Shown here piece after piece: positions 2-17,697 of a stretch of 20,102 nt of DNA (its first letter is position 1; each line of letters opens with the position of its first letter). The notes under the pieces were generated by a model. The model was not told where the DNA came from, searched no databases, and worked only from the letters and a program-made list of their open reading frames with translations. The stretch comes from a virus, in the IMG/VR virus record IMGVR_UViG_3300025816_000090, positions 1 to 20,102 of that record; one strand, given 5' to 3'. Position numbers and translations under genes: made by a program.

Positions 2-535
2 AACACCCGTGGTAGTAAAAACTATTACTATAGAATGAATTATGCAGATGATTATACTGCTGATAGAGGACTCAAAGTATATAAGTTTGAGAAAGACTAC
101 GGAAAAAAGGCTAAAAATCCACTGAACAATCCGCAATGGAATCCCACGGGACAATATCTAGAGTATGAATTTTACAGGTCATTCCCATTATCAATTAATT
201 CAATGCCAGTCTCCTATGAGGCAGCAAATCTTTTGAAGTGTACCGTCTCCATGAATTATATTCGCTATACTGTTAGAAGGTCTGGCGATCCTAGCATTGC
301 TGCAGATTCTCCAACAGGATCATCTCAATCTCCTCCAGCAGCATCTCCAGTACAAAAAATTCAAACCGCACAAAACGCTAGTGCATCACTAGGTGGTAGC
401 ACTAACGGACCTGGGACTCAATTCGCTGATAGAGATAGTGCTAGTGGAGGTAGTTCTGTAAATGATGGATCATTATTACTTCCTGATGGAAGCCCTGCTT
501 ATGATTCAAGCGGAAACCTACGCTCCATGTTTTAA
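2..535 (+). CDS. Tail tube or baseplate tube-cap protein (gp19/gp48/gp54 type), C-terminal part
   Basis: The reading frame is open from base 2, so the gene begins upstream of the window; the first ATG at 35 is internal. The visible part has a beta-rich stretch containing EFYRSFPLSINSMPVSYEAA followed by a KCTVSMNYIRYTV strand. This resembles the end of the tube fold shared by T4 gp19, gp48 and gp54 (FP-x-I-x-x-x-P-V-x-Y ... F-x-V-x-x-x-Y-x-Y). About 75 residues rich in Ser, Gly, Pro and Ala follow and look disordered. That long low-complexity tail and the position just before the hub genes favour a tube cap (gp48/gp54) over the main tube subunit, but the fragment cannot settle it. By analogy, the product would sit at the junction of baseplate and tail tube. 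Confidence 0.65.
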   Translation, partial: NTRGSKNYYYRMNYADDYTADRGLKVYKFEKDYGKKAKNPLNNPQWNPTGQYLEYEFYRSFPLSINSMPVSYEAANLLKCTVSMNYIRYTVRRSGDPSIAADSPTGSSQSPPAASPVQKIQTAQNASASLGGSTNGPGTQFADRDSASGGSSVNDGSLLLPDGSPAYDSSGNLRSMF

Positions 536-586: not shown

Positions 587-1306
587 ATGCCTTTACCAAA
601 GATTGCCACACCAACATATGAACTTGAGTTGCCATCAACCGGAGAACCAATTCAATATAGACCTTTCCTGGTAAAAGAGGAAAAGATTTTAGTCATTGCT
701 CTGGAGAGTGAAGATACCAAACAGATTACTACTGCCATCAAAGGTGTTATTAAGAACTGTATTAAGACAAAAGGTATCAAAGTAGAACAACTCCCTACAT
801 TTGATATTGAATTTCTCTTCCTAAACATCCGTGGTAAATCGGTTGGTGAAGAGATTGAACTCAATATCGTTTGTCCTGATGATGGAGAAACTGAAGTTCC
901 TGTCTCAATTAATATTGATGACATTAAAATTCAGAAAGATGATGAACATGATAATAAGATTAAGATTGGTGATGACTTGATGATGGTCATGAAGTATCCT
1001 TCTTTGGAACAGTTTATTAAAAACAACTTTGACTTTGAAGATAAGAATGCGATGGACCAATCATTTGATTTGATTGCATCTTGTATTGAATCTATTTGTA
1101 GTGAAGAAGAAGTATGGGCAGCAGGAGATTGTACCAAGAAAGAAATCAATGAGTTCCTTGAGTCTATGAACTCGTCGCAGTTCAAAGGTATTGAGAAGTT
1201 CTTTGAGACAATGCCTAAGTTATCGCATACTGTTTCTGTGACTAACCCTGCTACTAAAGTTAAGAGTGATGTTGTACTTGAGGGACTAGCAAGTTTTTTC
1301 GCGTAG
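587..1306 (+). CDS. gp26-type baseplate hub / tail assembly protein (T4_baseplate family), zero-frame product
   Basis: A 239-residue protein opening with a beta-rich IKYRPF-like segment (IQYRPFLVKEEKILVIALES). This matches my memory of the T4 base-plate family (Pfam T4_baseplate) annotated as gp26 or gp51 in cyanomyoviruses. It has a central C-P-D-D-G-E element near residues 104-109 and an acidic helical C-terminal half. AGGA at 579-582 is a short-spaced ribosome binding site for the ATG at 587. The last codons are AGT TTT TTC GCG TAG, so a UUUUUUC heptamer lies in frame just before the stop (see the frameshift entry). The gene stands between a tube-like gene and long tape-measure-like genes, the usual place of tail assembly chaperones. 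Whether it is a structural hub part or a chaperone cannot be decided from sequence alone. Confidence 0.8.
   Translation: MPLPKIATPTYELELPSTGEPIQYRPFLVKEEKILVIALESEDTKQITTAIKGVIKNCIKTKGIKVEQLPTFDIEFLFLNIRGKSVGEEIELNIVCPDDGETEVPVSINIDDIKIQKDDEHDNKIKIGDDLMMVMKYPSLEQFIKNNFDFEDKNAMDQSFDLIASCIESICSEEEVWAAGDCTKKEINEFLESMNSSQFKGIEKFFETMPKLSHTVSVTNPATKVKSDVVLEGLASFFA
1294..1300 (+). promoter_or_regulatory. Candidate -1 programmed ribosomal frameshift site (U UUU UUC)
   Basis: T1294 TTT(1295-1297) TTC(1298-1300) fits the X XXY YYZ slippery heptamer in the zero frame of the gp26-type gene, two codons before its TAG at 1304-1306. A -1 slip continues CGC GTA GGT ATG GTT CAT ATG AAT and so on to TAG at 1486-1488. 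The fusion would have 300 residues (238 plus 62). Downstream, TATGGT (1308-1313) can pair with ACCATA (1364-1369), starting 7 nt after the heptamer. TGAATCA (1326-1332) can pair with TGATTCA (1355-1361) inside it. A small local hairpin at 1311-1324 is an alternative. The pairing was found by eye and no energy was calculated. Confidence 0.6.
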
Positions 1307-1308
1307 GT

Positions 1309-1488
1309 ATGGTTCATATGAATCTTGAATCATACTTAAGATTAAATTTTTCCTTGATTCAGTACCATAAATACTCATTAACGGAGATTGAAAATATGAT
1401 ACCATGGGAACGTGATATCTACGTCGCTTTATTACAACAACATCTTGAAGAAGAGAAACTAAAGCATCAGCAATCGAATGGCATCTAG
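1309..1488 (+). CDS. Small T-like tail assembly ORF, possibly expressed as a -1 frameshift extension of the gp26-type protein
   Basis: The ORF has 59 codons from ATG 1309 (56 from ATG 1318, which has AGGT 9 bases upstream). The predicted protein is helical, with the motif MIPWERDIYVALLQQHLEEE in its second half. A Pro-Trp followed by a helix of this kind is typical of the short second frame in phage tail assembly chaperone pairs. The ORF sits in the -1 frame relative to the preceding gene, stays open back through the slippery heptamer, and overlaps the start of the next large gene by 11 bases. It may be made as a fusion, as a free protein by reinitiation, or both. The reading frame is clear; the mode of expression is inference. 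Confidence 0.7.
   Translation: MVHMNLESYLRLNFSLIQYHKYSLTEIENMIPWERDIYVALLQQHLEEEKLKHQQSNGI
1366..1373 (+). promoter_or_regulatory. T4-like late promoter box (NATAAATA)
   Basis: CATAAATA matches exactly the NATAAATA late promoter motif described for T4-like cyanophages (TATAAATA in T4). It lies inside the small frameshift ORF, about 105 bases before the first large tape-measure-like gene, so it could start a late transcript covering the genes from 1478 on. In AT-rich DNA a seven-base match can arise by chance. I saw only one other exact copy, before the gene at 11395, in a non-exhaustive read. Confidence 0.4.
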
Positions 1489-4400
1489 GACTAGCACCGA
1501 TCCAATAGAAATACTCTTAGAGATGGGTGTAGACCTGGATAATCTCTCCGAAGAGGAGGATTATCTTAGTGCCTTGATGGAGGCAGTCAATACATTACAA
1601 ATTAAAAATGCTGGTGATGATCGTATAGGTCCTCTTCAGCAAGAAATAAGAAAGGTAAGACAAAAAAGAAAAGCAGCAGACCCTAAGTTCAAAGTAAGAA
1701 AGACAAAGATATCCGCAGATGCCTTTAAGAAAGGAACTGCATCTGAAGTAAGAGATAATGTAAAAACCGGAGTAATAGATCCGTCTAAATTAAAATTTGA
1801 TTCAGTTGAGGTTGGACTAAAACCAAAAGCACTACCCACTAGTGCGATAGTTGCCTATCAGGCACCTGAAGCAGAAGAAGATACTAAAGCGAAGACAAAG
1901 AAAAAAGAAAAACCGACAAATCTTTTAGAACAAATCGCCAAGTCGGTTACTAATATTGCCGATACACTTAAGGATCAATATAATTTAAAGAAGAAATCGG
2001 GTGAGTTTGATAGAAAGAAAGCACAGAGAGATAAGAGAAAGCTTAATGAAAGTAATTTAGAGAAAGGATTCTCTGCATTATTTAAGACAGCACAAAAAAT
2101 AATTGCACCTGTCAGAGGAATTTTTGATAAGATATTTGGTTTCATTGCAAATATATTAATTGGAAAGTTTCTAGTTAAACTGATAGGTTGGATATCCAAA
2201 CCAGATAACCAGAAGAAATTAAAAAATATAATACAATTTCTAGGTAAACATTGGCCTAAGTTATTATCATTATATCTTGTATTTGGTACTGGACTAGGAA
2301 GATTTATCTTTAGTCTTACTAAAACTTTAATTGGTGGAGCAGTAAAACTTACTGTTGCTATTGCAAAACTTTTAGCAGCAAAAAAACTAGTCGGTGGTCT
2401 GGGTGCTAGAAAATTTGCACGACTACTTGGTGGTAAAAAAGGAAAATTTTTAGCTGCTGGACTCACAACTGCATTGACAGTTGGAGGTACTTACGCTGCT
2501 ACTAGTGCATTAGCAGGTGGAGGTGGAGAAACCCAAACACAAGGATTCTCTGGTGGTGGATTAGCAAAACCACCAAAAGTAGAACCACTTCCTAAAAATG
2601 CAGAGAGAAACCAGGGAATGTCTGGTGCTCAGAAGGGCATGGTATTTGGATCTTTATTTGGTCCACTTGGAATGGCTGCCGGTGCTGGTATTGGTTCTTT
2701 GTTTGATAATTTTGGTAATAAAAAAGATGATACTGTAAAACTATCTTCTCCTGCAAAAGTAGAACTTGAAGTTTCATCTGGAACTGACGGTGAGGTAGAT
2801 GGTCCTGGTGGAACTGATAAAGTACCAGCAATGCTTACTGCTGGTGAGTTTGTTATGTCCCGTGGTGCCGTACAAAAGTATGGTGTTAAAGCACTTGAAG
2901 GAATGAACGCTGCTGGTGGAGGAACTAATCTACCAAAAATGGTGAAGGATAAAGTTTATGCTGCAGGTGGTGGATATATTGGTAGAGGAACTGGAGCAGG
3001 CAGTCCTGGTGGGGGATATGGAGATAATAGAGGATACGCCACAGGTTCTATAACGAGTGATCCTTTAGGTGCCCTTGATAGAATACTTGGGCAATCGAGT
3101 GGCGGTAGAGTTAGATTACCTGGTGGAGGAGAGCAAGATAGTAAACCAAGTAGTTCGTCACCTAAACCAAGAGTGCAACCGAAGGATCCAGTTATACCTT
3201 CATCCTCCAATAAACCACCGTCATCTTCAGAGCAGGAGACTTCAAAAGATCAAAAAGCAGATGGTATTCCAGAGAGAATGTTAAAGAGTCCTACATTCAG
3301 AGACTCTGGTCTTCTTTATCTTAGGTCAATGCTGGGTGGACTAGGTGGACCCATCACAGAGAGTCAACTTTCTGAAGCATCTAGGGTAGAATTAAATAAT
3401 GCAATCGCAAGGGCTAAACAGAGAACTAGTAGTGAACTTGCATTTGCAGAGAAACAACTACAAGAAGCAAAAGATGGAGGATTTAATAAGCAAATACTTG
3501 CAGAAAGGCAGAGTGTTCGTGATCGTCTGAAGCGAGGCGAAGTACGAGTTCTCTATCAAGACTACTATGATGGAAATGATGAGAAAAATATAACTCCAGC
3601 AGCAGAAAATGCTAAGAGTATTCTTGGTAAGTTCTGGGCAACGTCTACCGAAAAGGGTGGGTATAGAGTTGTAAATGAAAAATATGACTTCGTTGAGATG
3701 CCAGATCCTATGGCAGTTTTGCGAGGAGATTCTTCTGGTGTCTCTAAAGGAGCAAAAGCAGGTGAAGACATTACTCTTCGACAGAAACTTCAAGCATTAC
3801 ATCAACTTAATCCTCTCGCAAGATCGATGAATGTTGATATGATTCTTGGTGAAAAACCAAATCCAAAAAGAGATCTTGGTAATATTATGAAGTATACGAT
3901 TGGTGGTATTGCTGATCATTTTACCGGCAATTTATTTGATTTTGATCAGCAGGGTGGTAGAAGTTTGATGAATCCTTCTGGCAAAAAAGAAGAGAAAGCA
4001 AGAGAAAAAGTTGATAAACAACTCTCAACACTTCAGGGCATGTCTAAGCAACAGGTTTTGAATGCTCAGAAGTATGCAGAATCTAAAGGAAAATATTTTT
4101 CTAGCACAGATGGGAGGACTTATGAGAGTTATCAAGCTGCTGTAGATGCTCAGAAATCAACATCTGCTACACCTGTTGCTCCTGCAAAACCTGCTTCTTC
4201 TGCAAAACCTGCTACTCCCTCCATGAGTCAAGCAGAGGCATTAAACGCACAAAAATATGCAGCATCAAAAGGTAAATATTATTCTAGTGCAGATGGAAAG
4301 ACTTATCCTAATTATCAAGCTGCTGTAGATGCTCAGACAAAATTCCATAAAGGTGGAATGGTGATGGGACGAAACAAACCAAAAATCAGTTCTCCCGAAG

Positions 4401-4549
4401 CACCAATGCAAGCTAAAGTATCAGTCATTAGAATACCAAAAACAAAATCTAATGATAGTCTTCCAGCACCACGCGGGGGATCTAGAACTCCTGATATCAA
4501 TGCTGGTAATGGAAGTGCTTCCAAGCGTAAGATTTTGGGGATAGTGTAA
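1478..4549 (+). CDS. Tape-measure-like tail protein 1
   Basis: A 1023-residue protein. Residues 1-215 are charged and helical with many Lys/Arg/Glu. Hydrophobic stretches follow near 222-238 (FIANILIGKFLVKLIGW), 262-300 and 324-348, and then a Gly-rich region. Around 435-477 there is a DKVPAMLTAGEFVM element followed by A-x-x-x-Y-G and MN, a signature I know from C-terminal parts of phage tape measure proteins. Residues 480-600 are Gly/Ser/Pro-rich. Two 33-residue repeats lie at 860-892 and 921-953, and FHKGGMV occurs near the C-terminus. No strong ribosome binding site precedes ATG 1478, and the 11-base overlap with the preceding small ORF suggests coupled translation. Position after a chaperone-like pair supports a role in setting tail length or filling the tube. 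No T4 gp29 identity is claimed. Confidence 0.6.
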   Translation: MASRTSTDPIEILLEMGVDLDNLSEEEDYLSALMEAVNTLQIKNAGDDRIGPLQQEIRKVRQKRKAADPKFKVRKTKISADAFKKGTASEVRDNVKTGVIDPSKLKFDSVEVGLKPKALPTSAIVAYQAPEAEEDTKAKTKKKEKPTNLLEQIAKSVTNIADTLKDQYNLKKKSGEFDRKKAQRDKRKLNESNLEKGFSALFKTAQKIIAPVRGIFDKIFGFIANILIGKFLVKLIGWISKPDNQKKLKNIIQFLGKHWPKLLSLYLVFGTGLGRFIFSLTKTLIGGAVKLTVAIAKLLAAKKLVGGLGARKFARLLGGKKGKFLAAGLTTALTVGGTYAATSALAGGGGETQTQGFSGGGLAKPPKVEPLPKNAERNQGMSGAQKGMVFGSLFGPLGMAAGAGIGSLFDNFGNKKDDTVKLSSPAKVELEVSSGTDGEVDGPGGTDKVPAMLTAGEFVMSRGAVQKYGVKALEGMNAAGGGTNLPKMVKDKVYAAGGGYIGRGTGAGSPGGGYGDNRGYATGSITSDPLGALDRILGQSSGGRVRLPGGGEQDSKPSSSSPKPRVQPKDPVIPSSSNKPPSSSEQETSKDQKADGIPERMLKSPTFRDSGLLYLRSMLGGLGGPITESQLSEASRVELNNAIARAKQRTSSELAFAEKQLQEAKDGGFNKQILAERQSVRDRLKRGEVRVLYQDYYDGNDEKNITPAAENAKSILGKFWATSTEKGGYRVVNEKYDFVEMPDPMAVLRGDSSGVSKGAKAGEDITLRQKLQALHQLNPLARSMNVDMILGEKPNPKRDLGNIMKYTIGGIADHFTGNLFDFDQQGGRSLMNPSGKKEEKAREKVDKQLSTLQGMSKQQVLNAQKYAESKGKYFSSTDGRTYESYQAAVDAQKSTSATPVAPAKPASSAKPATPSMSQAEALNAQKYAASKGKYYSSADGKTYPNYQAAVDAQTKFHKGGMVMGRNKPKISSPEAPMQAKVSVIRIPKTKSNDSLPAPRGGSRTPDINAGNGSASKRKILGIV
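4055..4153 (+). repeat. 33-residue protein repeat, copy 1
   Basis: This encodes a unit beginning VLNAQKYAESKGKYFSS and ending YQAAVDAQ (residues 860-892 of tape-measure-like protein 1). Copy 2 at 4238-4336 differs at only a few residues. A 28-residue Ala/Pro/Ser linker (893-920) separates them, itself containing a short A-K-P-A repeat. The core is D-G-x-T-Y-x-x-Y-Q-A-A. Confidence 0.9.
4238..4336 (+). repeat. 33-residue protein repeat, copy 2
   Basis: This encodes a unit beginning ALNAQKYAASKGKYYSS and ending YQAAVDAQ (residues 921-953), the partner of copy 1 at 4055-4153. The FHKGGMV segment shared with the next gene's C-terminal region follows within a few residues. Confidence 0.9.
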
Positions 4550-4550
4550 G

Positions 4551-7500
4551 ATGGCAATAATCGGAGCGTTGGCAAAGGGATTGGTTAAAGGTGGCGGACG
4601 TGCTGTTGCATCTAATATTATGGGTCGTAAAAAAACTGTGAAACCATCTGCGATTGCCCTCAGACAAGGTGCTCAAGGTCAACAGCAGGGTCAAAGGAAG
4701 GGTAGTGCATTAGTTAAGTCTCCTACTACAGCAATAACAAAGGCAATGGCACCTATTCAAAAGGTTTCCACTGGTCCTGTTGCTAAGGGAGATTACCTTG
4801 CCATTATTCATGAGAAGGTTCTGACCATTGAGAAGATTGTTACTGGTGTCTACAAAGCAGAGAAGGATAATCTAAAGGCAGAGAAGCAAGCAGAGAAAGA
4901 TGACGATAGAAAGAATAAAGAACAAAAACTAGAAACAAAAGATAAGAAACCAGAAAAGAAAAAACCATCTCTTAAACAGTTACCTAAACTTGGTGTGTTT
5001 GGTTGGTTAAAAAGATTTATAGGAAACATTTTGATGGGATTATTCCTATCTAAGATGGTTGACTTTGCAGGACTCTTACCTGGTATAGTGAGAGCGATTG
5101 ATGGTATAACAACTTTCTTGGCAGACTTCGGCATTCTAATGGTCAATGCTCTAACCACGTTTGCTGACTGGGGAATTAAGGCATATAATTTTACGTTTGG
5201 TGCCATAGAAAAAGGTATAGGTCCTCTCTTTGGAGAAAATACTGACAAAGTTCTTGGTTTAATAGACACTACAATATTTTTAACAACCACCATTGCAGCT
5301 GCCATGGCAGCAGAGGCATTGATGGGTGGCGGAGATGATGGACCTGGACTCTTAGATTTTATGAAAGGAAAGGGTGCCGCTAAAGGTGCTACTGCTGCTA
5401 AGGGTGCCACTGCTGCTAAGGGAACTGCTGCTGCTGGCGCTAAGGGGACTGCTGGTATTGCTGGCGGTGCTGCTGCTACTGCTGCTGCGATTGTATCTGG
5501 TGTTGGATTGCTTTCATCTGCACTAGGTGAAGGTGCTTTCCAACTCAGAAAAATTGGTAAGGGTCTTGAAGGTGGTGCAAAGAAAAGATATGAAGAAAAG
5601 TCATTTGTTGATCCAAGAAAATCACTTGATTGGTTATTATATCAGGGGGCAAGATTTGTAAATCATAATCTTAATGGTCTTGGTATTCTCCTTGATATTG
5701 TTGGAGCACCATTTAGATATGCGATTGAGTTAATTAGTTTTGGTATGATGGCTCTTCTTGGTGATACTGAGGGGATGAAGAAGCAGAGAAAAAATCTTGC
5801 CAAGTTTGATACCAGAGTTCGTGAAGGGATTCGCCAGTTACTGAACGTAGCAACTTTAGGATTTGGATTTAAAGATAAGGGATCTTTTGGAAATATTTTT
5901 GGTGACAATGAAGCCACCAAAGAAATGGTGGCCAAGATGCAAGAAGGTGGTAAGGTTAAAGGATCTGGAAAGGGTAAAGTACAGCGTGGTATTAAAACTA
6001 AAAAGAAGAAAAGAAAAAAACTTAGACTTGCTAGACCAACTAGAGAAGTAATGGCACCGTTGCCCACGGTAGATGAGAAAAAACTAGATCCAGATGATGT
6101 AGGAAAAAATAATAGAGAATGGTGGGATTTCCTTGGATGGGCTGGTACTGGAAATGCTGAGAAACCACTTGGACAAGGTGGAAAAATTCTTGCAGAAAAA
6201 ACAACTAAAGTTGGTAATGAGTTAGGGAAGAACGATTACTTTGGTCCTATCTTGAGAGTGGCATCCAAGTTAATTTTGGATCAAGATATTACATCAAAAG
6301 ATTATTCAAATATTGGTCGCGGTATTAATTTACTGGTAGATGATGGTATAGTAAAAAATAAAGTTGGTGTACTGGGATATAATCAAGGTGGACTTGCTGA
6401 GAATCTCCCGCAGTTGGATGTAACTGATTGGGTATCTAAAACATTTGAGGATACCTTGAGAGATGATTTAAAGAAAAAATATTTACCTAACTCTTCATAT
6501 GGTTCTACTTCTGGACCCGGTTCTACACCAGGTTCTAGAGATTCTGCTACTGGTGCGTTGGATGGTTACATGTCTGGTCCTGCTGGATCAAGTGGAGATG
6601 CTCTCACCATGGCAAGAAACTTGATGAGAGATCTCAATTTGACTGAAGCACAGGCTGCTGGTATTGTTGGTAATATGATTGCTGAGTCTGGTGTTGAGAA
6701 TGCTCGTCCACAGAATACTCCAGGTGGAACAAAAGGTCCGCTGGTTGTTGACGGTGTAACTGGATATGGTATTGTCCAGTGGACATCAAAAGGTAGACAG
6801 AAAGCATTGTATGAGTTTGCTAAGAGTAAGGGACATGATATGAGTAAACCCTTGACCATGGATATTGAGTATCAATTCTTCTTGAAAGAGTTCCAAGGTT
6901 CATATGGTAATGTTCTTCGGCAAATAAGACAAGCAAAGAATGTGAAGGAAGCATCTACTATATTCATGCAGCAGTATGAAATCCCTGCTGGATATAGGAC
7001 AGAAGCAAAGATTATGGAAAGATATAATATGTCTAACCCTGTATATGAGAAGTTGTCTGCTGGTCAGGGAACTGCAACTGAGGGTGAAAGATCATTCATT
7101 GCACCACAAAATGTAACTGCTCCCGACTTATCTGGAACTGAACAAGGAGAAGGAACTGAAGCATCTAACAGATTACTGAAAGATTATCCTCAGATTAAAT
7201 CAAGAGGTAGTGCTCAACAAATCTATGCATCTGGTCTTGGATATTTCCTCAAGAAGAGTGGAGCAGGAAGACCAGGTAAAGGTGATTTTGGTGATCCTGA
7301 TGGTGGCGATATGGAGCACCCCGATCATGGTGGAGTCGTTGCATCTCATAGAGGGTCAGGACATGGGAGAGGTGTTGCTCTCGACCTTGGTGGTAATAGT
7401 GCCACTTCTAGTTCCTATAGAGATGACCAGAGAAAATTATGGCCATACATTTCTAGATATCTTAAGAAGTATGGATTAAATAAAGACCCATTTATTCCTC

Positions 7501-7913
7501 AAGTTCTTCATGGAAGAGGTGAAAGTTTTTCTCCAGTAGGACCTAGTAGTGGTGCTGATGGTGGACATAATGATCACTTCCACGTTGAGTTTCACAAAGG
7601 CGGTATGGTGGGTGGTTCTGGATTAGTCAATGCATTATTGAAGACCGGTGAGATGGTCATTGATGTTGATAGTACTGGTCCAGCAAAAAATCTTCTGCTT
7701 GCCATCAACCAAGCATCAAGTAGAGAGGGAATTATTAAAGCAATCAGAGACTATGCTCCTTATGATGCAAGAGCAGAGCAGACAATCATGGTCCCTGAGG
7801 TATCTGAAGATGTGCCACAAGTGCTACCATCTGGCGGTTCTTCCTCAACAACATTATTACCAATTCTTATGGGTAGTTCAAACCCATTTGAGTTCTTGGA
7901 ATATCAAGGTTAA
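4551..7913 (+). CDS. Tape-measure-like tail protein 2 with tail-lysozyme and LAS-type metallopeptidase domains
   Basis: A 1120-residue protein whose ATG lies one base after the previous stop, so translation is probably coupled. Residues 70-145 are highly charged. A hydrophobic motif at 156-172 (FIGNILMGLFLSKMVDF) copies that of protein 1, and further hydrophobic runs lie near 181-211, 243-260 and 303-326. Residues 683-835 look like the phage tail lysozyme family (Phage_lysozyme2): AQAAGIVGNMIAESG with candidate catalytic Glu712, then GYGIVQWT at 738-745. Residues 930-1015 carry S-x-x-H-x-x-G-x-A-x-D-like spacing (His938, Asp945) and HNDHFHVE at 1006-1013, a zinc-site pattern of M15/LAS peptidases. 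The C-terminus has FHKGGMV and LLKTGEMVIDVDS, again tape-measure-like. Such a protein could cut peptidoglycan glycan and peptide bonds during DNA entry. Domain calls are from motif memory. Confidence 0.7.
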   Translation: MAIIGALAKGLVKGGGRAVASNIMGRKKTVKPSAIALRQGAQGQQQGQRKGSALVKSPTTAITKAMAPIQKVSTGPVAKGDYLAIIHEKVLTIEKIVTGVYKAEKDNLKAEKQAEKDDDRKNKEQKLETKDKKPEKKKPSLKQLPKLGVFGWLKRFIGNILMGLFLSKMVDFAGLLPGIVRAIDGITTFLADFGILMVNALTTFADWGIKAYNFTFGAIEKGIGPLFGENTDKVLGLIDTTIFLTTTIAAAMAAEALMGGGDDGPGLLDFMKGKGAAKGATAAKGATAAKGTAAAGAKGTAGIAGGAAATAAAIVSGVGLLSSALGEGAFQLRKIGKGLEGGAKKRYEEKSFVDPRKSLDWLLYQGARFVNHNLNGLGILLDIVGAPFRYAIELISFGMMALLGDTEGMKKQRKNLAKFDTRVREGIRQLLNVATLGFGFKDKGSFGNIFGDNEATKEMVAKMQEGGKVKGSGKGKVQRGIKTKKKKRKKLRLARPTREVMAPLPTVDEKKLDPDDVGKNNREWWDFLGWAGTGNAEKPLGQGGKILAEKTTKVGNELGKNDYFGPILRVASKLILDQDITSKDYSNIGRGINLLVDDGIVKNKVGVLGYNQGGLAENLPQLDVTDWVSKTFEDTLRDDLKKKYLPNSSYGSTSGPGSTPGSRDSATGALDGYMSGPAGSSGDALTMARNLMRDLNLTEAQAAGIVGNMIAESGVENARPQNTPGGTKGPLVVDGVTGYGIVQWTSKGRQKALYEFAKSKGHDMSKPLTMDIEYQFFLKEFQGSYGNVLRQIRQAKNVKEASTIFMQQYEIPAGYRTEAKIMERYNMSNPVYEKLSAGQGTATEGERSFIAPQNVTAPDLSGTEQGEGTEASNRLLKDYPQIKSRGSAQQIYASGLGYFLKKSGAGRPGKGDFGDPDGGDMEHPDHGGVVASHRGSGHGRGVALDLGGNSATSSSYRDDQRKLWPYISRYLKKYGLNKDPFIPQVLHGRGESFSPVGPSSGADGGHNDHFHVEFHKGGMVGGSGLVNALLKTGEMVIDVDSTGPAKNLLLAINQASSREGIIKAIRDYAPYDARAEQTIMVPEVSEDVPQVLPSGGSSSTTLLPILMGSSNPFEFLEYQG
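5379..5432 (+). repeat. 18-bp in-frame tandem repeat (AKGATA units)
   Basis: Two near-identical 18-base units (5379-5396 and 5397-5414) and a degenerate third (5415-5432) encode Ala-Lys-Gly-Ala-Thr-Ala runs inside tape-measure-like protein 2. They lie between hydrophobic stretches and probably form a flexible linker. Such repeats can change copy number by slipped-strand replication. Confidence 0.8.
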
Positions 7914-9284: not shown

Positions 9285-9512
9285 ATGGAAAGTGTAGAAA
9301 AGCATATTGAAGTAGATAAAAAGATCCTTGAAGATCCAACTACTTCGCCACAACAACGTCGCCACATTGAAGGTGAACTGCAAGAGCTAGAAGTTTATGC
9401 TACTAATCACAAAGCAGAGATTGAAGCAGGAGATCATCATGATCCCACAGCACTAGAACTCTTCTGCGAGATGGAACCTGAAGCAGACGAATGTAGGGTA
9501 TACGAGGACTGA
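9285..9512 (+). CDS. CP12-like protein
   Basis: A 75-residue protein ending ELFCEMEPEADECRVYED. This matches the C-terminal CP12 signature: aromatic-C-x8-C-R-x-Y-x-D, with Glu/Asn-Pro and Ala between the two Cys. CP12 in cyanobacteria binds GAPDH and phosphoribulokinase under oxidising conditions and switches off the Calvin cycle; its C-terminal Cys loop docks on GAPDH. Residues 28-41 (IEGELQELEVYATN) resemble the helical EEL region before it. The N-terminal Cys pair and the AWD element of canonical CP12 are absent. cp12 is a known auxiliary metabolic gene of T4-like cyanophages. Here it starts four bases after the gp27-like stop without a ribosome binding site, and its TGA overlaps the next ATG (TGATG). 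A virion role for a CP12-derived fold is the alternative. Confidence 0.75.
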   Translation: MESVEKHIEVDKKILEDPTTSPQQRRHIEGELQELEVYATNHKAEIEAGDHHDPTALELFCEMEPEADECRVYED

Positions 9513-11394: not shown

Positions 11395-14300
11395 ATGTCG
11401 TTCAATATCTTCGGACCAACGCAAAAAAGAGATATTACAGTTGGGTATATTTCAACTGATAGAGGTTATATACAAAATGTTAGTATCCTTGATGCTAATA
11501 ATTATGCGTTTAAAAATCCTGGCACCATTTTTATCGTACAGACAAGAGATGGAGTAAAATATTTTAATATAAATGATGTTAATAATTTAAAACCAGATGA
11601 TATTATTCCAAGCAATACTGCTGCGGACGGAACTTGTCAAGGAGTAGTTGGTTTAAATCCACAAACTATTGGAGATGCTGTTGCAATAGGAACCGGAAGT
11701 CCTGGCAATACTTCAAATCCACATAATTTTCTTCCTCGTGGACCATACGCACAACTACCTGATCAAGATGCAACTGGTGGCGACGGCAGCGGTGGAAACG
11801 GTGGTGATATACCAACTGGACTTGGACCTGCTCCCACTGGTATTGGAACGGTTGGTACTGGAGGTCCAATTGTAGTTATTTCTGGGTGTGGTGGTGTTGG
11901 TGCAGCTGCAGTCCCTATTATTGGTAATGATGGTGGCATTTTAGATATTGTAGTAACTGCTGGCGGATTTGGATATAGATGTCCACCAAAAGTTAGTGTA
12001 ATTGATCCAAATAGAAGAGGAAGTGGAGTTGTTGCCACATCAGTGATTGGTGTAACGACATCTCCTACACTAATCACTTATGATAGTGAGGATGATTTTG
12101 AAATATATGATTTTGATCCTGCAAATGGGATCCCAGGACTCACTGGATATGGAAATAGAGTAGGTCCTAATGGAGAAGACTTAGGAGATTGGGATCCATC
12201 TTTATACGCTACCTTTGCACAGGATCCTATCGGCATTGAGATTGCAAGATATCAGAAGTTTCTAAGGGAATTGAAAAAACCTTGGTGGTCTACTAGAAAA
12301 GAGACTCCTTTAAATGTTGCATTTGGAAATAAGAAGGATAGAGTAAAGCATGATGTTCAACATTGGGAATGGGATGGCGATTCAAAACTTAAATCAGGAC
12401 CCAACACTCAGTATAAAGATGTAGAGTTTGAGGTTTTCACTCAAGGTGGAAATCAGGCTGATAGAGGGATGATGTTTAAGTTTGTTTCGGAAGATGGATC
12501 TCATAAATTTCAATTCAAGGCAGAGAGTTATAAAGACAGTAGAAAGACTAAAGTCACGAAAAAGATAAGAGTAAACACTACCTATTTGATTACTGCCTCA
12601 GGATCTTTTAAAGGAGGAGGAGTTGAGCAAGGTCTTGTCGGAAATCTTGGAAGAAATTCAAAAGAAATTAAGGGCAATAATAAAAAAGGATCTACTATAT
12701 TTGCCGACTTTGTTAAGTCATCTAATGATAATGATGATTTACAAATCAGAGCAACTCAAGGTAGATTTACTGCGACTGGCGAAAGAAAATTTGAAGGACA
12801 TTCTACAACTGACCTTGAATATAGATTTGATGTTAAGGGACCTGGTATTGATAAGAAAATAAAACCATCATTCATGAACAACTATGCTATTTCTCCTGTT
12901 CCTGCATCAGATGTTCCTGGTAGCGATTTTGCGGGTAGATGGTGTACCTTTGATTGGGAAGAAGATTTCCCTTATGCGGGAGAGTATGTCTTCAGAGGAA
13001 TGGCAGATAACATTGGTAAGATGTATCTTGATAATGAACTCATCATGGAAGCAAAACATTTTAGAGGAGATCCATTACCTTCTAATGTAGTTAAAAAAAC
13101 TGTTGAGGCAGGAGTTCATAAAATTAAGGTAGACCTGTATAATGCACCTCAGAAAGCAACTGTGTCTACTACGGTAACAAATAATACGCAAGATGAGAAG
13201 AAAAAAGTTCCTGTAAACTTTGAGGTTTATGGTCAGGGAAGTAAGAGAAATACTGCTATTAATATGGTGTTTACTTCTGAGGATGGTAAGCATTCGTTTA
13301 CATTTAAACCAGAAGAACTTAAAGGTAGTAAGTACGATTATAAGAAAACAGTAAGAGTTTTTCCAAATACTCAATACAAAGTACAAGCAGTTTCAACGCA
13401 TAAAATTAAAGGGAATACCCCTTCGCGGCGCAGCGAAACAAAACTCCCTATAGTAATCACGGGCAATTCTTCCACTTCTGGGTTGGAAGTTAATGATAGT
13501 GGAAAAAGAATTAGATATGATGATGATGCTACCAATGGCTTTGATGAGAACGCCCAACTTAGAATTGTGTCATCGTCTCCTGGAGTTAATGCCAAATTCT
13601 CTAGCGATGGAACAGAACTTTTGGTTAAAGGTTCGGGTGATGTCACCTTAAAGTTTAGTTGGGATGATAATCCCAGTACTTCTGGACTTGCAGTAGGAAA
13701 ACTGACAGTAGGAGGACAAGTTTTTCAGCAAATTAATGAGAAAGGTAGTCAAACCAAAACTGTTACCGTTGGAAGTAATGTTTCAGGAAGTAGAGATCAA
13801 ACCGTAAACTTAGTTCCAGAACAAGGAACTTTGAAATCAAATGCGTTCAAAAAAGGTAAACAGAAAGAAAATGCCACTAGATCTAATGTAATTTTTGCCG
13901 ATATTGTTGGGTCTGCAAATGACAATGATGATATGCAAGTGAGATGTAGTGAAGGAACTTTTGTCCCAACTAATAGAAGAAAGATTACCGGAACTGGACC
14001 TAAGGGTGAGCAAACTAGAAACACTTGGGATCTTACTTTTACAGTAAACGCAAAACCATCATTAAAACCTAAAGATTCTGGAACAAATGTAACTGAAATC
14101 TTTAATACTACGGATTATATTGGCAAGGCAGATAGAAAACTTTGGAGAACAAATCTCTACAATAATGCTTCGTTTTTAAATGAATATGGAATCTGCCCCT
14201 TCAACACAGTCACCAAAAAGAATGAAGATTATGATGGAACTCATGTAATTCGCTGGGAACACATCACTTTCCCTGCTGATGGTAATTATCAGATTGAAAT

Positions 14301-17300
14301 ACAAGTTGATGATAAAGTGAAACTATTCATTGGTAATCGCACTGGTGTTGGTGCTATGGGAATTGGTAATGGACTGAAAAATGTTGATGATGGGGGAGAT
14401 GAAGTTATTATTGAAAAGGATGGGTTTGTTGGTAGTAGTAACAGGTCAACTGGAAAGAGTACTTACACCAGATTCTTTAAGAAAGGTCAGTATAGAATCA
14501 GAGCAGAACTTTATCAAAAACCTGGTGGTGATTTTGGTTTTAATGGTAGAAAGTCTTATGGACAAAAGGATGGATCTAATATCTCTGCAAGATTTGTAAA
14601 TCGTGATGGTAAAAATTATCTTAAAGTGGATGGATCTGGAACTGCAGAGATTAGTTTTCGTTTAAGAGTGGACGATAATCCAAGAATATCTGGAGTTTTT
14701 GCATCTAAAGTTAAAATTGGTCGTCCACCAAATGATTATGTTCTTCTGTCTAGAAGAAGGTCTGGCGGCAGGTATAAGGAAAAAGAAATAATTACTGGGT
14801 CTGATATATTTGAGGCAGGAAGAGAGTATCTTATAGAAAATATTGGATCATCTAGAGGAACAGGATCTATTATAAAAAATAGTGGAAGGACAATTGAATA
14901 TGATGATAATATTGGCAACGGATTTGATGAGAATGCAGATCTTTCTATTGTCAAAATAAAAAATAAGCAGGGTTCACCTAATAAGGGGCTCAATCCAATG
15001 GCACTTGCCATTAGGATTAGGGCAGATGTCATTGAAACTACTAGGATTTCACCTAGAACCTGGAATCAAAATCCAATGGGAGCAGCATTCACTATTGATG
15101 CACCTCTTCCACCCATTCCGATTTCACCCAAACCAATTAGCGAAGGTAGATGTCCAGATAACCCAACATGGACTACTAGATTCTCTGGCGGTAACGAAAA
15201 GTGGTGGCCTGTTACTCATAAATTTAGAGATGGATCAAGGTCGTGGTCTAAATTCATGAATAGATTTGCTATCTCACCAATTCCTCCCTTAGGAACAATT
15301 AATAGTGATGGTGGTGGAATTGTTTATAGAAACACTTGGAATATTGACATTCTTCATGCAGGTTTCTACGCACTTAAAGGAACTGTTGATAATGGAGGAA
15401 GAATTTTAGTTGATGGCACAGAAAGAATGCGAGGAGGTTATTTCCCTACTGCGACATTCTCTGCTCCTGCGGATGTACCACAAGGAAGGTTGGCAGGATT
15501 TAGAGAGACATCTCCGCCAATGCATAAGTTCTACTTAGATGAAGGTAAGCATACCATTACTGTTGAAGTTGAGAATCAAAAGACTCTTAAGCAAAAGAAA
15601 GTAGAGAAAAAAATCTTTAGTACCCAGGATTGGAGAAATAATAAAGTTCCTCAGGGAAGAGTTCCCGTTGATTTTGATGTCTATGGGCAAGGATCAAAAA
15701 GTAATAAGCAAATCAATTTCGTATTTACTTCTGAGGATGGAAAGGATAGTTTTACATTTAAACCAAAAGAGACTAAAGGTAACTACAATTACTCAAGACA
15801 AGTAAAAGTTCTTCCAGGTATGAACTATAAAGTTCAGGCGGTTGCTACTGGTAAACTTAACTCAGGTAAACAAGAATATCCATTAGAATTTGATGGATTG
15901 AATTCAGCAAACCAAGGACCCGTGAATAGTATTGAGGTTTCGGGTAAAAATAGTACAAATCAAAATGACACCTTAAAATTAAGAGATGGTGATGGTAGTG
16001 ATGCTAATGCTAAGTTTACTATCATATCAACTTCTCCTGGAGTAAGTGCTAAGTTCTCTGATGATGGTAAAAAATTATTAACAAATGGAAACGGTGATGT
16101 CACCATCAGGCTTAAATGGGATGATAATCCCAGAACTGCTGGTGTTGCTGTCAAAAGTATTAAAATAGGTGGTAAAACTTGGAGACAAAGTGGTCAAAAA
16201 GGTGAACAAGATCAAACACTTTCAACCACTAAGGGTTCTACTGACTTAGTTCCAGAACAAGGGACATTAAAAAGAGGATCATTTGGTAAGAGTAAAGATA
16301 AGGGTGCTAAAGAATCCTCAAATGGATCTGACGTAATCTTTGCAGACATTATTGGTTCTTTAAATGATAATGATGACATTCAGGTTCGCGCTAGTGTTGG
16401 TGAGTTTACTCCATCAAATAAGAGAAAGGGTGTTCAAGGAACTTCTGGTCAAGGAACTCAAAAGAGGAACACTTGGGATCTCACGTTTAAAGTTGAGGGA
16501 GATAATCCTACACAAGTAAAAGCACAAGGATCTGTCACTTACTCTGGACCTAGATTGTTTGTTATTAAGTCTGGATCAGCAGTTAGACTTTGGAGTAAGT
16601 TCATGCAGCGAAATGCTGTGTCACCTTTCATCCCTCCAATTGATTTAGATAGTGAAAATCATCTTGGAGATAGGACATATATTTGGAAAGATGTTAATTT
16701 CTTTGAGTCTGGACAATACAAATTCCTATTCCAATCTGATGATGGAGCAATTCTTTACATTAATGGTAATAAAGTTGCAGAATCTAAATCTGATTTTAGA
16801 GGAGAAGCTAGTCCCACATATACTGAACTTTCTTCAGGAAAATATGAGGTAAAAGTTGTTTGTAACAATGTAAGATTGAATAGGAATGTTTTGACCGGCA
16901 ATAATCCAACTGGATTTGCTCTTAAAATTATGAAGGATGTTGTTATCTCTGAAAAATCATTCCCATGGACAACCAATCCTGTTGGAATATCTGCAATGTT
17001 GATCCCACCACCTTGCCCCAAAGTTGTTATAGGAAAGGGGATAGTTACTGATATCATCGTAAGAGACCCTGGAAATGGTAATGGACCAGAAACATCGATA
17101 GGAACCCCTACAATAGTTACGATTAAAGATATTGAAACAACTCTTCCTGGCATTAACTATGATCCAGATGACATAGCACTCATTAACGACATCCCTGTTA
17201 CTATTGATGTGGATAATTTTGGTAGAATTATAAAAATCAATGTTCCTACGGGTGGTAGTGGTACAGGTAGTGGTACAAGTGGTACAGGTAGTGGTACAAG

Positions 17301-17697
17301 TGGTACAGCAATTAGAGTTACAGATACTCCTGTAATTGACGTACCATCTTTGACTGGAGTTGGATTTAGAGGAACTCCTATTATGCAAACAACCGTCGTT
17401 CCTGAAGAAGTATTTGCACCTGAAGATATAATCCAAGTTACAGATTTGGTTGGTCTCACACAAAATGGTTATGTCAATGGCAAACCTTACTATGGCAGTG
17501 TATTCTCCAGAGATGGTAGATTATTTGCTGGAATCTATGAAACAACTGGAGAATTAGTTCCTGTTTATGCAACTCTTCAAGAGAGTATTGCTAATAGAGT
17601 TACCACTAGACCTTCTGCAATCCTTAGACAGGGTACAAGTGCCAACAGTAACAATCCTAACCTTAATATTCCGGGAACTCCTCAAAATCTCATCTAG
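11395..17697 (+). CDS. Giant modular virion protein with four PA14-like units
   Basis: A 2100-residue protein. Residues 1-72 form a small domain (RDITVGYISTDRGYIQNVSI). A Gly-rich linker (about 120-160) and a DGGILDIVVTAGGFGY beta module (160-220) follow. Repeated units then fill about 343-1830: A (VYGQG...FTSEDG...FTFKP) at 343, 603 and 1421; B (IFAD-x-x-x-S-x-N-D-N-D-D) at 434, 831 and 1646; C (F-x-N-x-x-x-I-S-P followed by G-x-Y and D-x-G-x-I-L-x-x-x-G, PA14-like) at 492, 925, 1285 and 1734; D (DDNP-x-x-x-G-x-A) near 746, 1081 and 1566. A C-terminal Gly/Ser/Thr linker precedes a final 120-residue domain. PA14 folds bind carbohydrate in many proteins, so a host-surface or peripheral baseplate role is plausible. 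No enzyme signature was seen, and no clear ribosome binding site precedes the ATG. No T4 counterpart is recognised. Confidence 0.75.
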   Translation: MSFNIFGPTQKRDITVGYISTDRGYIQNVSILDANNYAFKNPGTIFIVQTRDGVKYFNINDVNNLKPDDIIPSNTAADGTCQGVVGLNPQTIGDAVAIGTGSPGNTSNPHNFLPRGPYAQLPDQDATGGDGSGGNGGDIPTGLGPAPTGIGTVGTGGPIVVISGCGGVGAAAVPIIGNDGGILDIVVTAGGFGYRCPPKVSVIDPNRRGSGVVATSVIGVTTSPTLITYDSEDDFEIYDFDPANGIPGLTGYGNRVGPNGEDLGDWDPSLYATFAQDPIGIEIARYQKFLRELKKPWWSTRKETPLNVAFGNKKDRVKHDVQHWEWDGDSKLKSGPNTQYKDVEFEVFTQGGNQADRGMMFKFVSEDGSHKFQFKAESYKDSRKTKVTKKIRVNTTYLITASGSFKGGGVEQGLVGNLGRNSKEIKGNNKKGSTIFADFVKSSNDNDDLQIRATQGRFTATGERKFEGHSTTDLEYRFDVKGPGIDKKIKPSFMNNYAISPVPASDVPGSDFAGRWCTFDWEEDFPYAGEYVFRGMADNIGKMYLDNELIMEAKHFRGDPLPSNVVKKTVEAGVHKIKVDLYNAPQKATVSTTVTNNTQDEKKKVPVNFEVYGQGSKRNTAINMVFTSEDGKHSFTFKPEELKGSKYDYKKTVRVFPNTQYKVQAVSTHKIKGNTPSRRSETKLPIVITGNSSTSGLEVNDSGKRIRYDDDATNGFDENAQLRIVSSSPGVNAKFSSDGTELLVKGSGDVTLKFSWDDNPSTSGLAVGKLTVGGQVFQQINEKGSQTKTVTVGSNVSGSRDQTVNLVPEQGTLKSNAFKKGKQKENATRSNVIFADIVGSANDNDDMQVRCSEGTFVPTNRRKITGTGPKGEQTRNTWDLTFTVNAKPSLKPKDSGTNVTEIFNTTDYIGKADRKLWRTNLYNNASFLNEYGICPFNTVTKKNEDYDGTHVIRWEHITFPADGNYQIEIQVDDKVKLFIGNRTGVGAMGIGNGLKNVDDGGDEVIIEKDGFVGSSNRSTGKSTYTRFFKKGQYRIRAELYQKPGGDFGFNGRKSYGQKDGSNISARFVNRDGKNYLKVDGSGTAEISFRLRVDDNPRISGVFASKVKIGRPPNDYVLLSRRRSGGRYKEKEIITGSDIFEAGREYLIENIGSSRGTGSIIKNSGRTIEYDDNIGNGFDENADLSIVKIKNKQGSPNKGLNPMALAIRIRADVIETTRISPRTWNQNPMGAAFTIDAPLPPIPISPKPISEGRCPDNPTWTTRFSGGNEKWWPVTHKFRDGSRSWSKFMNRFAISPIPPLGTINSDGGGIVYRNTWNIDILHAGFYALKGTVDNGGRILVDGTERMRGGYFPTATFSAPADVPQGRLAGFRETSPPMHKFYLDEGKHTITVEVENQKTLKQKKVEKKIFSTQDWRNNKVPQGRVPVDFDVYGQGSKSNKQINFVFTSEDGKDSFTFKPKETKGNYNYSRQVKVLPGMNYKVQAVATGKLNSGKQEYPLEFDGLNSANQGPVNSIEVSGKNSTNQNDTLKLRDGDGSDANAKFTIISTSPGVSAKFSDDGKKLLTNGNGDVTIRLKWDDNPRTAGVAVKSIKIGGKTWRQSGQKGEQDQTLSTTKGSTDLVPEQGTLKRGSFGKSKDKGAKESSNGSDVIFADIIGSLNDNDDIQVRASVGEFTPSNKRKGVQGTSGQGTQKRNTWDLTFKVEGDNPTQVKAQGSVTYSGPRLFVIKSGSAVRLWSKFMQRNAVSPFIPPIDLDSENHLGDRTYIWKDVNFFESGQYKFLFQSDDGAILYINGNKVAESKSDFRGEASPTYTELSSGKYEVKVVCNNVRLNRNVLTGNNPTGFALKIMKDVVISEKSFPWTTNPVGISAMLIPPPCPKVVIGKGIVTDIIVRDPGNGNGPETSIGTPTIVTIKDIETTLPGINYDPDDIALINDIPVTIDVDNFGRIIKINVPTGGSGTGSGTSGTGSGTSGTAIRVTDTPVIDVPSLTGVGFRGTPIMQTTVVPEEVFAPEDIIQVTDLVGLTQNGYVNGKPYYGSVFSRDGRLFAGIYETTGELVPVYATLQESIANRVTTRPSAILRQGTSANSNNPNLNIPGTPQNLI
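13422..13437 (+). repeat. GC-rich palindrome inside the giant modular gene
   Basis: TTCGC (13422-13426) and GCGAA (13433-13437) form a 5-bp stem around a GGCGCA loop. It is a GC-rich patch in an AT-rich gene, encoding S-R-R-S-E at the end of unit A copy 2 (near residues 676-681). The matching place in unit A copy 3 (near 15860) lacks it. It could be a small inserted repeat or only a local loop variant. Confidence 0.5.
17260..17307 (+). repeat. 21-bp in-frame tandem repeat (GTGSGTS units)
   Basis: Two identical 21-base units (17260-17280 and 17281-17301) plus six bases of a third encode Gly-Thr-Gly-Ser-Gly-Thr-Ser. They form a flexible linker before the last domain of the giant protein. Perfect identity at the base level suggests recent expansion or ongoing slippage. 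Confidence 0.9.

Follow-up and report, generated by a model that had tools for sequence, protein, structure and literature searches.

gp26 and the small open reading frame behind it as a probable -1 frameshift pair of tail assembly chaperones in a cyanomyovirus-like phage

The gp26-type gene of a cyanomyovirus-like phage is followed by a small open reading frame (ORF) that is labelled gp51 in several relatives, which raises the question of whether the two are separate genes or one gene read in two ways. We analyzed this junction in a window of 20,102 nucleotides (nt), that is, the whole stretch studied (IMG/VR record IMGVR_UViG_3300025816_000090, positions 1 to 20,102). A first-pass annotation, made from the letters alone, had proposed that a -1 programmed frameshift joins the two, as in the G/GT pair of phage lambda. 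Our results favor this proposal: with a probability of about 0.93, gp26 and "gp51" would constitute one gene, which produces a G/GT-type tail assembly chaperone (TAC) pair by -1 frameshifting. A pair of this type is the most likely reading because of the heptamer, the phase, the missing start codons, the hairpin, the chaperone-like fold and the homology of T4 gp51. Slippage in cells and its rate, as well as the chaperone action and the tape-measure client, are what we infer from these features. The elements of the junction are as follows.

587..1306, + strand: gp26-type gene, 239 amino acids (aa), predicted short chaperone form (TAC-N, lambda G-like); from PF12322, phrog_150 and a structural model
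1294..1300, + strand: slippery heptamer U UUU UUC, putative -1 frameshift site; from conservation in relatives
1300..1488, + strand: -1 extension of 62 residues plus stop; in the long form (TAC-NC, lambda GT-like), the predicted C-terminal domain; from phrog_634, the C-terminus of phrog_150 and a gp51 profile
1301..1310, + strand: 10-nt spacer between heptamer and hairpin, holding the 0-frame stop TAG 1304-1306; columns 19-28 of alignment A1
1311..1324, + strand: conserved RNA hairpin, probable stimulator, with stem 1311-1315/1320-1324 and loop 1316-1319, in which ATG 1318 begins; from covariation

The slip site, its conservation and the downstream hairpin

As read directly from the sequence, the 3' end of gp26 is GCA AGT TTT TTC GCG TAG, in which T TTT TTC is in register with gp26 and a single sense codon (GCG) precedes the stop. 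Between the heptamer (first codon CGC, 1300-1302) and the TAG at 1486-1488, no stop interrupts the -1 frame, which contains the 59-aa ORF (1309-1488) with its PWERDIY motif; the predicted slip product is 300 aa long (238 plus 62 residues) and has the junction S-F-F-R-V-G. These elements are as the first-pass annotation had given them, as is the gene order, with a tube-like gene before the pair and tape-measure-like genes after it, the first of which is weakly so. When the window's 11 ORFs were taken as genes, 39 in-register X XXY YYZ sites were found in 6483 codon pairs, and T TTT TTC was in register twice, the gp26 site being one of the two. A lone T TTT TTC at the end of gp26 with an open -1 frame is thus suggestive and not compelling by itself; the observation is settled because the heptamer is conserved in relatives.

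Two sets of relatives were compared. The close set comprised 80 IMG/VR loci (the best 80 of 599 candidates; gp26 identity 72-99%) and the window, giving 81 loci. The distant set comprised 100 readable loci, namely 92 IMG/VR contigs and 8 named phage records, which were gathered with gp26 queries from Pelagibacter, Aeromonas, Vibrio and Pseudomonas phages. There were 77 distinct junctions in the close set and 55 in the distant set, 54 of the latter with the heptamer. Duplicate phages among the distant loci were L082/L091, L083/L106 and L086/L101. Loci in which gp26 runs off the contig end (L112, L115 and L155) and a partial match (L099) were left out of the counts, and two loci that end shortly after the heptamer (L004 and L056) were included in the heptamer count. 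Alignment A1 held 80 of the 81 close loci, the codon-variation analysis 77 gap-free genes, and the tree analysis of the hairpin 75 of the 81.

The first-pass annotation had left its proposal to such an alignment, in which relatives might have shown the two ORFs in random phase or without the heptamer. TTTTTTC was in register in all 81 close loci, and T TTT TTT or T TTT TTC in 99 of the 100 distant ones. The second domain, as far as the sequence extends, was in the -1 phase in 100/100 distant loci, and the phase was likewise -1 in 81/81 close loci. The codon before the heptamer varied among the close loci (TCT in 42, AGT in 35, GGT in 3 and GCT in 1), its third base always being T. The two Phe codons were fixed in 77/77 close genes, with F237 as TTT and F238 as TTC, although TTC makes up only 30% of the Phe codons in these genes. 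Among 231 scored columns, F206, F237 and F238 were the only ones without synonymous variation.

The heptamer was followed by a predicted RNA structure, so that both features of a canonical -1 site, X XXY YYZ and downstream structure, are present, with a long spacer. What we take to be the nested pairing that the first-pass annotation had noted downstream was predicted in the window itself: its best fold is a 10-base pair (bp) stem (1307-1316/1326-1335), 6 nt past the heptamer, with -9.8 kcal/mol and a z of -3.07 for 1301-1335. This stem was not kept in relatives, where 44.6% of alignment cells were paired compared to 28.6-54.2% for slid versions, and it was rejected as the conserved element; the hairpin at 1311-1324 is kept instead. 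In alignment A1, 88.6% of the cells of this 5-bp hairpin were paired, and its core in relatives was mostly CATATG or CACATG. Changes on both sides of a pair were found in 35 cells, compared to 14.2 +/- 3.6 in shuffles (0 of 500 reached this value), a test in which related sequences can exceed shuffles without any structure. On the gp26 tree, the four variable pairs showed 12 same-branch double changes where 3.2 were expected, 10 of them pair-preserving, with a background ratio of 1.55. The pairs at columns 30/41 and 32/39 couple a synonymous third position with an amino-acid-changing position of another codon, a coupling that would not readily be produced by coding alone. Among 26 offsets, the lowest mean folding z was obtained for the 36 nt starting 5 nt past the heptamer, being -1.75 in 75 close junctions and -1.22 in 55 distant ones. 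An 8-bp extension of the hairpin (columns 25-27/43-45) was also tried and rejected: 76.5% of cells were paired over the whole helix, it forms in only part of the relatives, and the window makes one of the three added pairs.

The distance from the heptamer to the second domain was then compared among the 54 distinct distant junctions with the heptamer. In 49 of them, a loose YYxxNF-type motif begins exactly 11 codons past the slip. Two of the five exceptions end early, and in L142 the motif is in the same place and one residue off the pattern. Counted from the first base of the heptamer, the 0-frame stop stands at 7, 10, 13 or 31 nt. The heptamer is therefore the fixed domain boundary, unlike the stop or a start codon, since the 11-codon spacing is constant and the stop position is variable. 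Of all the evidence for a single continuous long protein, this constant spacing is the strongest. No ATG, GTG or TTG was found within the first ten codons past the slip or upstream in 38 of the 54 junctions, and the first ATG came at least 10 codons past the slip, or not at all, in 46. As a side observation, where the stop lies at 31 nt (L127, L142, L154, L157 and similar loci), gp26 continues for about 8 codons, and this stretch is read in two frames.

Protein family, fold and the T4 genes

The gp26 protein (587-1306) matched PF12322 (T4_baseplate) with an E-value (E) of 5.3e-74 and 249 bits, against a curated cut-off of 24.5, and phrog_150 with E 2.5e-78. The small ORF matched phrog_634, "baseplate hub assembly catalyst" (E 3.5e-26). 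Together with the alignment of 22 sequences and the motif spacing, this match indicates that the second ORF is conserved as a protein. The small ORF of Stenotrophomonas phage Mendera showed no phrog_634 match in PHROGs. The small ORF also matched the C-terminal end of phrog_150 (E 1.4e-5), and it was this match that first pointed to a short and a long form in the family.

The AlphaFold model of gp26, built with an alignment of 68 sequences, had a mean pLDDT of 86.1. Of 452 chains aligned to it, three known TAC structures ranked highest, all within residues 1-96: 2OB9 (HK97 gp13; Z 7.9 over 84 residues), 3FGX (RBSTP2171; Z 7.8) and 3KLU (YqbN; Z 7.3), the next row being at 5.0. A passage in PMC9603447 names all three as TACs. 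They differ from gp26, which has about 140 more residues of mixed strands and helices and shares 6-10% identity with them. The modelled fold is good, but not by itself conclusive, evidence for chaperone identity. A sequence search of solved structures with the gp26 and gp51 profiles gave no meaningful match, and the scanned proteins scored below the cut-off for every Pfam TAC family. Phage_TAC_3 came closest, with a sub-threshold match to the Pelagibacter gp26 (E 0.018) in a region different from that of the fold match. A scan with the Ochrobactrum protein found no relative. Within the 20,102-base window, no gp26 paralogue was found other than gp26 itself.

Phage T4 differs from the phage of the window in having two genes where the latter would have a frameshift. 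T4 has gene 26 (208 aa) on one strand and gene 51 (249 aa) on the other, and both products matched PF12322 (215.6 bits for gp26 and 177.5 bits for gp51). T4 gp51 also carries the domain of the small ORF in frame (phrog_634, E 1.2e-23). Profile comparisons gave the same arrangement: the gp26 profile matched residues 12-202 of the T4-type gp51 profile (E 2.3e-10), and the small-ORF profile matched its residues 209-245 (E 1.5e-6). By these matches, T4 gp51 is a gp26 paralogue, with the PF12322 domain and the small-ORF domain in frame. In T4, the short and the long form thus each have a gene of their own, since gp51 continues in frame into the small-ORF domain.

As a control, we used T4 and 11 contigs that carry both gp26 and gp51, including L191-L193, which were found by tblastn. 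The heptamer was present in gp26 of none of these 12 phages. Phe-Phe was kept at the end of gp26 in nine (eight with TTC TTT after A or G and one with G TTT TTT) and lost in three. The heptamer is thus kept where the long form needs it and absent where a second gene supplies the long form, a natural control. Two minor observations were made on these genes. In L194, gp51 (1501-2246) is broken, its frame ending after 120 codons and the match resuming in another frame, which is either a real break or a sequencing error. T4 gp26 (L081, 4803-5429) weakly matched the gp28 family profile phrog_1140 (E 9.4e-4), so that the chaperones may have another remote paralogue in gp28.

Weighing the readings

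Several results weigh against a frameshifted chaperone pair. The loci share kinship, and the counts are therefore not those of independent events. Vibrio phage K469 (L085; its record gives no family), the one exception among the 100 distant loci, has TAATG in place of the heptamer, and the Vibrio phages 1.255.O and VAP7 of the Ackermannviridae (L199 and L201) likewise have a TAATG overlap without it. In these three phages, CTT TTT or GTT TTT precedes the TAATG, and the second ORF is still in the -1 phase. The 10-nt spacer to the hairpin exceeds the usual 5-9 nt of -1 sites, and RNAalifold gave four pairs only, with a small covariation term (-0.26 kcal/mol). As for the fold, the Z values of 7.3-7.9 are under the tool's safe-match level of 8; Foldseek with gp26 gave no match with E below 0.001, the best being 0.31; and no TAC structure was among the 50 entries listed of 854 pre-ranked chains aligned to the model of a T4-gp51-type protein. 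Finally, the ATG at the 1318 position was kept in 80/80 close loci, and separate initiation may occur there in the window's clade.

This last point leads to the alternative that survives best, namely that both routes operate, with a frameshift giving the long form and ATG 1318 giving a free C-terminal domain in the cyanophage clade. It gains from the contrast between the fixed ATG of the close loci and the late or absent one in most distant junctions. Nevertheless, this codon may be conserved simply for the sake of a Met residue and the hairpin loop, and no ribosome binding site was seen before it by eye; we regard this combination as unlikely.

The current annotation corresponds to two separate genes, in which case translation of gp51 would start independently at ATG 1309 or ATG 1318 and might be coupled to the end of gp26 translation. 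Besides the constant ATG at 1318, it can draw on the 1309 position, where 51 of the 81 close loci have ATG, and on the records of HTVC008M, MC09, P-SSM2 and P-HM1, in which gp51 is annotated on its own. In the remaining 30 close loci, however, the 1309-equivalent codon is leucine-type (CTA, CTG, CTC, TTG or TTA), and such a Met/Leu exchange is the pattern expected of an interior residue. Moreover, most distant junctions offer no start codon ahead of the conserved domain, as counted above; ATG 1318 begins in the conserved hairpin loop and, by eye, has no Shine-Dalgarno-like stretch before it; and the fixed heptamer codons and the constant heptamer-to-domain distance are left unexplained. Two separate genes are consequently a very improbable account of this locus.

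It is scarcely credible that the heptamer and phase are functionless products of chance or shared descent and the second ORF a decaying remnant, for although poly-T is frequent in AT-rich genes and the window holds another in-register T TTT TTC, such an origin is contradicted by the synonymous fixation in 77/77 genes, the conserved protein domain, the heptamer in 99 of 100 distant phages and its loss in 12/12 phages with a separate long gene.

Routes to the pair, known systems and neighboring genes

We therefore return to the -1 frameshift pair and to how it compares with the lineages that lack the heptamer. Taken jointly, these suggest, with somewhat better than even odds, that the T4 superfamily makes one chaperone pair in three interchangeable ways: a frameshift with a hairpin, a duplication with in-frame fusion, and a TAATG overlap or weaker slip site. 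On this view, the classic T4 hub genes 26 and 51 would have arisen through the loss of a frameshift. As parts of the same joint reading, T4 and its relatives would have taken the duplication with in-frame fusion, their heptamer having decayed mostly to TTC TTT, and the Ackermannviridae the third way, in which start and stop overlap as TAATG or the slip site is weaker. The frameshift with hairpin, seen in cyanophages, the Pelagibacter phage and several other lineages, is probably ancestral.

Part of this picture was available before. To judge by its title and by citing papers, the work of Vladimirov, Gautam and Davidson (2022; Virology 566:9-15) reportedly identified the TACs of T4-like phages, these being, it is said, gp26 and gp51, in agreement with our PF12322 and phrog_634 results. 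The duplication probably appears there already. The first-pass annotation had suggested that the frameshift would recast the gp26 family as a TAC; the assignment is supported by the fold match and by T4 gp51 as its in-frame equivalent, but given the 2022 work it is not a new recasting. A citing passage in PMC10885494 mentions that in some T4-like phages a short gene and a fused long gene take the place of a frameshift, and another in PMC12846349 that TAC-N genes of T4-like phages are known to carry poly-T -1 slippery sequences. A frameshifted T4-like chaperone is thus of a kind already known, and the window is an unannotated instance of it. These citing passages do not mention the hairpin, the lack of start codons, the constant 11-codon distance or the disappearance of the heptamer from T4-type phages, any of which may be in the 2022 paper. 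In a literature search mostly at abstract level, no description of a cyanophage gp26/gp51 frameshift or hairpin was noticed.

For T4, a table in a 2010 review lists gp26 and gp51 as hub assembly chaperones, and according to passages of the same review, gp51 is required yet is not part of the particle, and conclusions on what the hub consists of contradict each other, some work placing gp26 in it (PMC3004832). The closest parallel in arrangement is given by lambda G/GT and P2 E/E', in which, as in the window, the tube gene is followed by a short chaperone, a -1 extension and the tape measure gene, and the short-form gene has a slippery heptamer at its 3' end. Their heptamer differs from the one reported here. 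According to a passage in PMC12846349, the TAC of the Vandenendeviridae and Andersonviridae (phage Adele) resembles that of the window in being a myovirus chaperone with a poly-T slip and a conserved -1 extension that is annotated separately, and differs in its motif, GTTTTT, and in its family. The GTT TTT and CTT TTT sites of the Ackermannviridae resemble this Vandenendeviridae motif, as that passage gives it.

We propose the following mechanism. Most ribosomes would stop at 1304-1306 and yield the 239-aa short chaperone (TAC-N). A minority, held on U UUU UUC by the small downstream hairpin, would slip back by one base; the two Phe-tRNAs would shift from UUU UUC to UUU UUU, and reading would continue with CGC GUA GGU to 1488. 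These ribosomes would yield the 300-aa long form (TAC-NC), whose tail domain surrounds PWERDIY. By analogy with lambda G/GT, the short and long forms may assemble together on the tape measure protein, whose genes would be those at 1478 and 4551, recruit tube subunits and then leave. In lambda, the short form G coats the tape measure, and the tail of the long form GT recruits tube subunits; in the window's phage, the short form would likewise coat the tape measure and the tail of the long form would bring the tube subunits.

This reading explains why, in relatives, a gene labelled "baseplate hub assembly catalyst" frequently lacks a start codon or goes unannotated. In 14 annotated relatives, none showed a joined coding sequence (CDS) in the stretch shown, and the second ORF was left out of the annotation in three (Ah1, ORM_20 and S-PRM1). 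This agrees with the remark in the first-pass annotation that such a frameshift is not known to be a standard part of T4-like annotations; genome records should show a joined CDS at gp26/gp51. The chaperone idea is testable by one mutation in abundant marine viruses, and the conserved hairpin is an element open to reporter testing.

The genes that flank the pair in the window are as follows.

2..535, + strand: tail-tube-like gene, cut by the window edge; phrog_45 tail tube, E 2e-10
1478..4549, + strand: first long tail gene, weakly tape-measure-like, overlapping the end of the -1 ORF by 11 nt, putative chaperone client; phrog_35029, E 3e-78 (unknown function), and phrog_25241 tape measure, E 8.1e-4
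4551..7913, + strand: second long tail gene, tape-measure-like; residues 685-835 match a tail lysozyme domain (PF18013, E 4.9e-26); phrog_9570 tape measure, E 2.3e-10

Further downstream, a CP12-domain gene (9285-9512; PF02672, E 1.1e-10; phrog_627), which is a host-like photosynthesis regulator, is located between two tail genes. A 2100-aa ORF (11395-17697) contains repeated similar segments, such as PVDFDVYGQGSKSNKQINFVFTSEDGK and PVNFEVYGQGSKRNTAINMVFTSEDGK.

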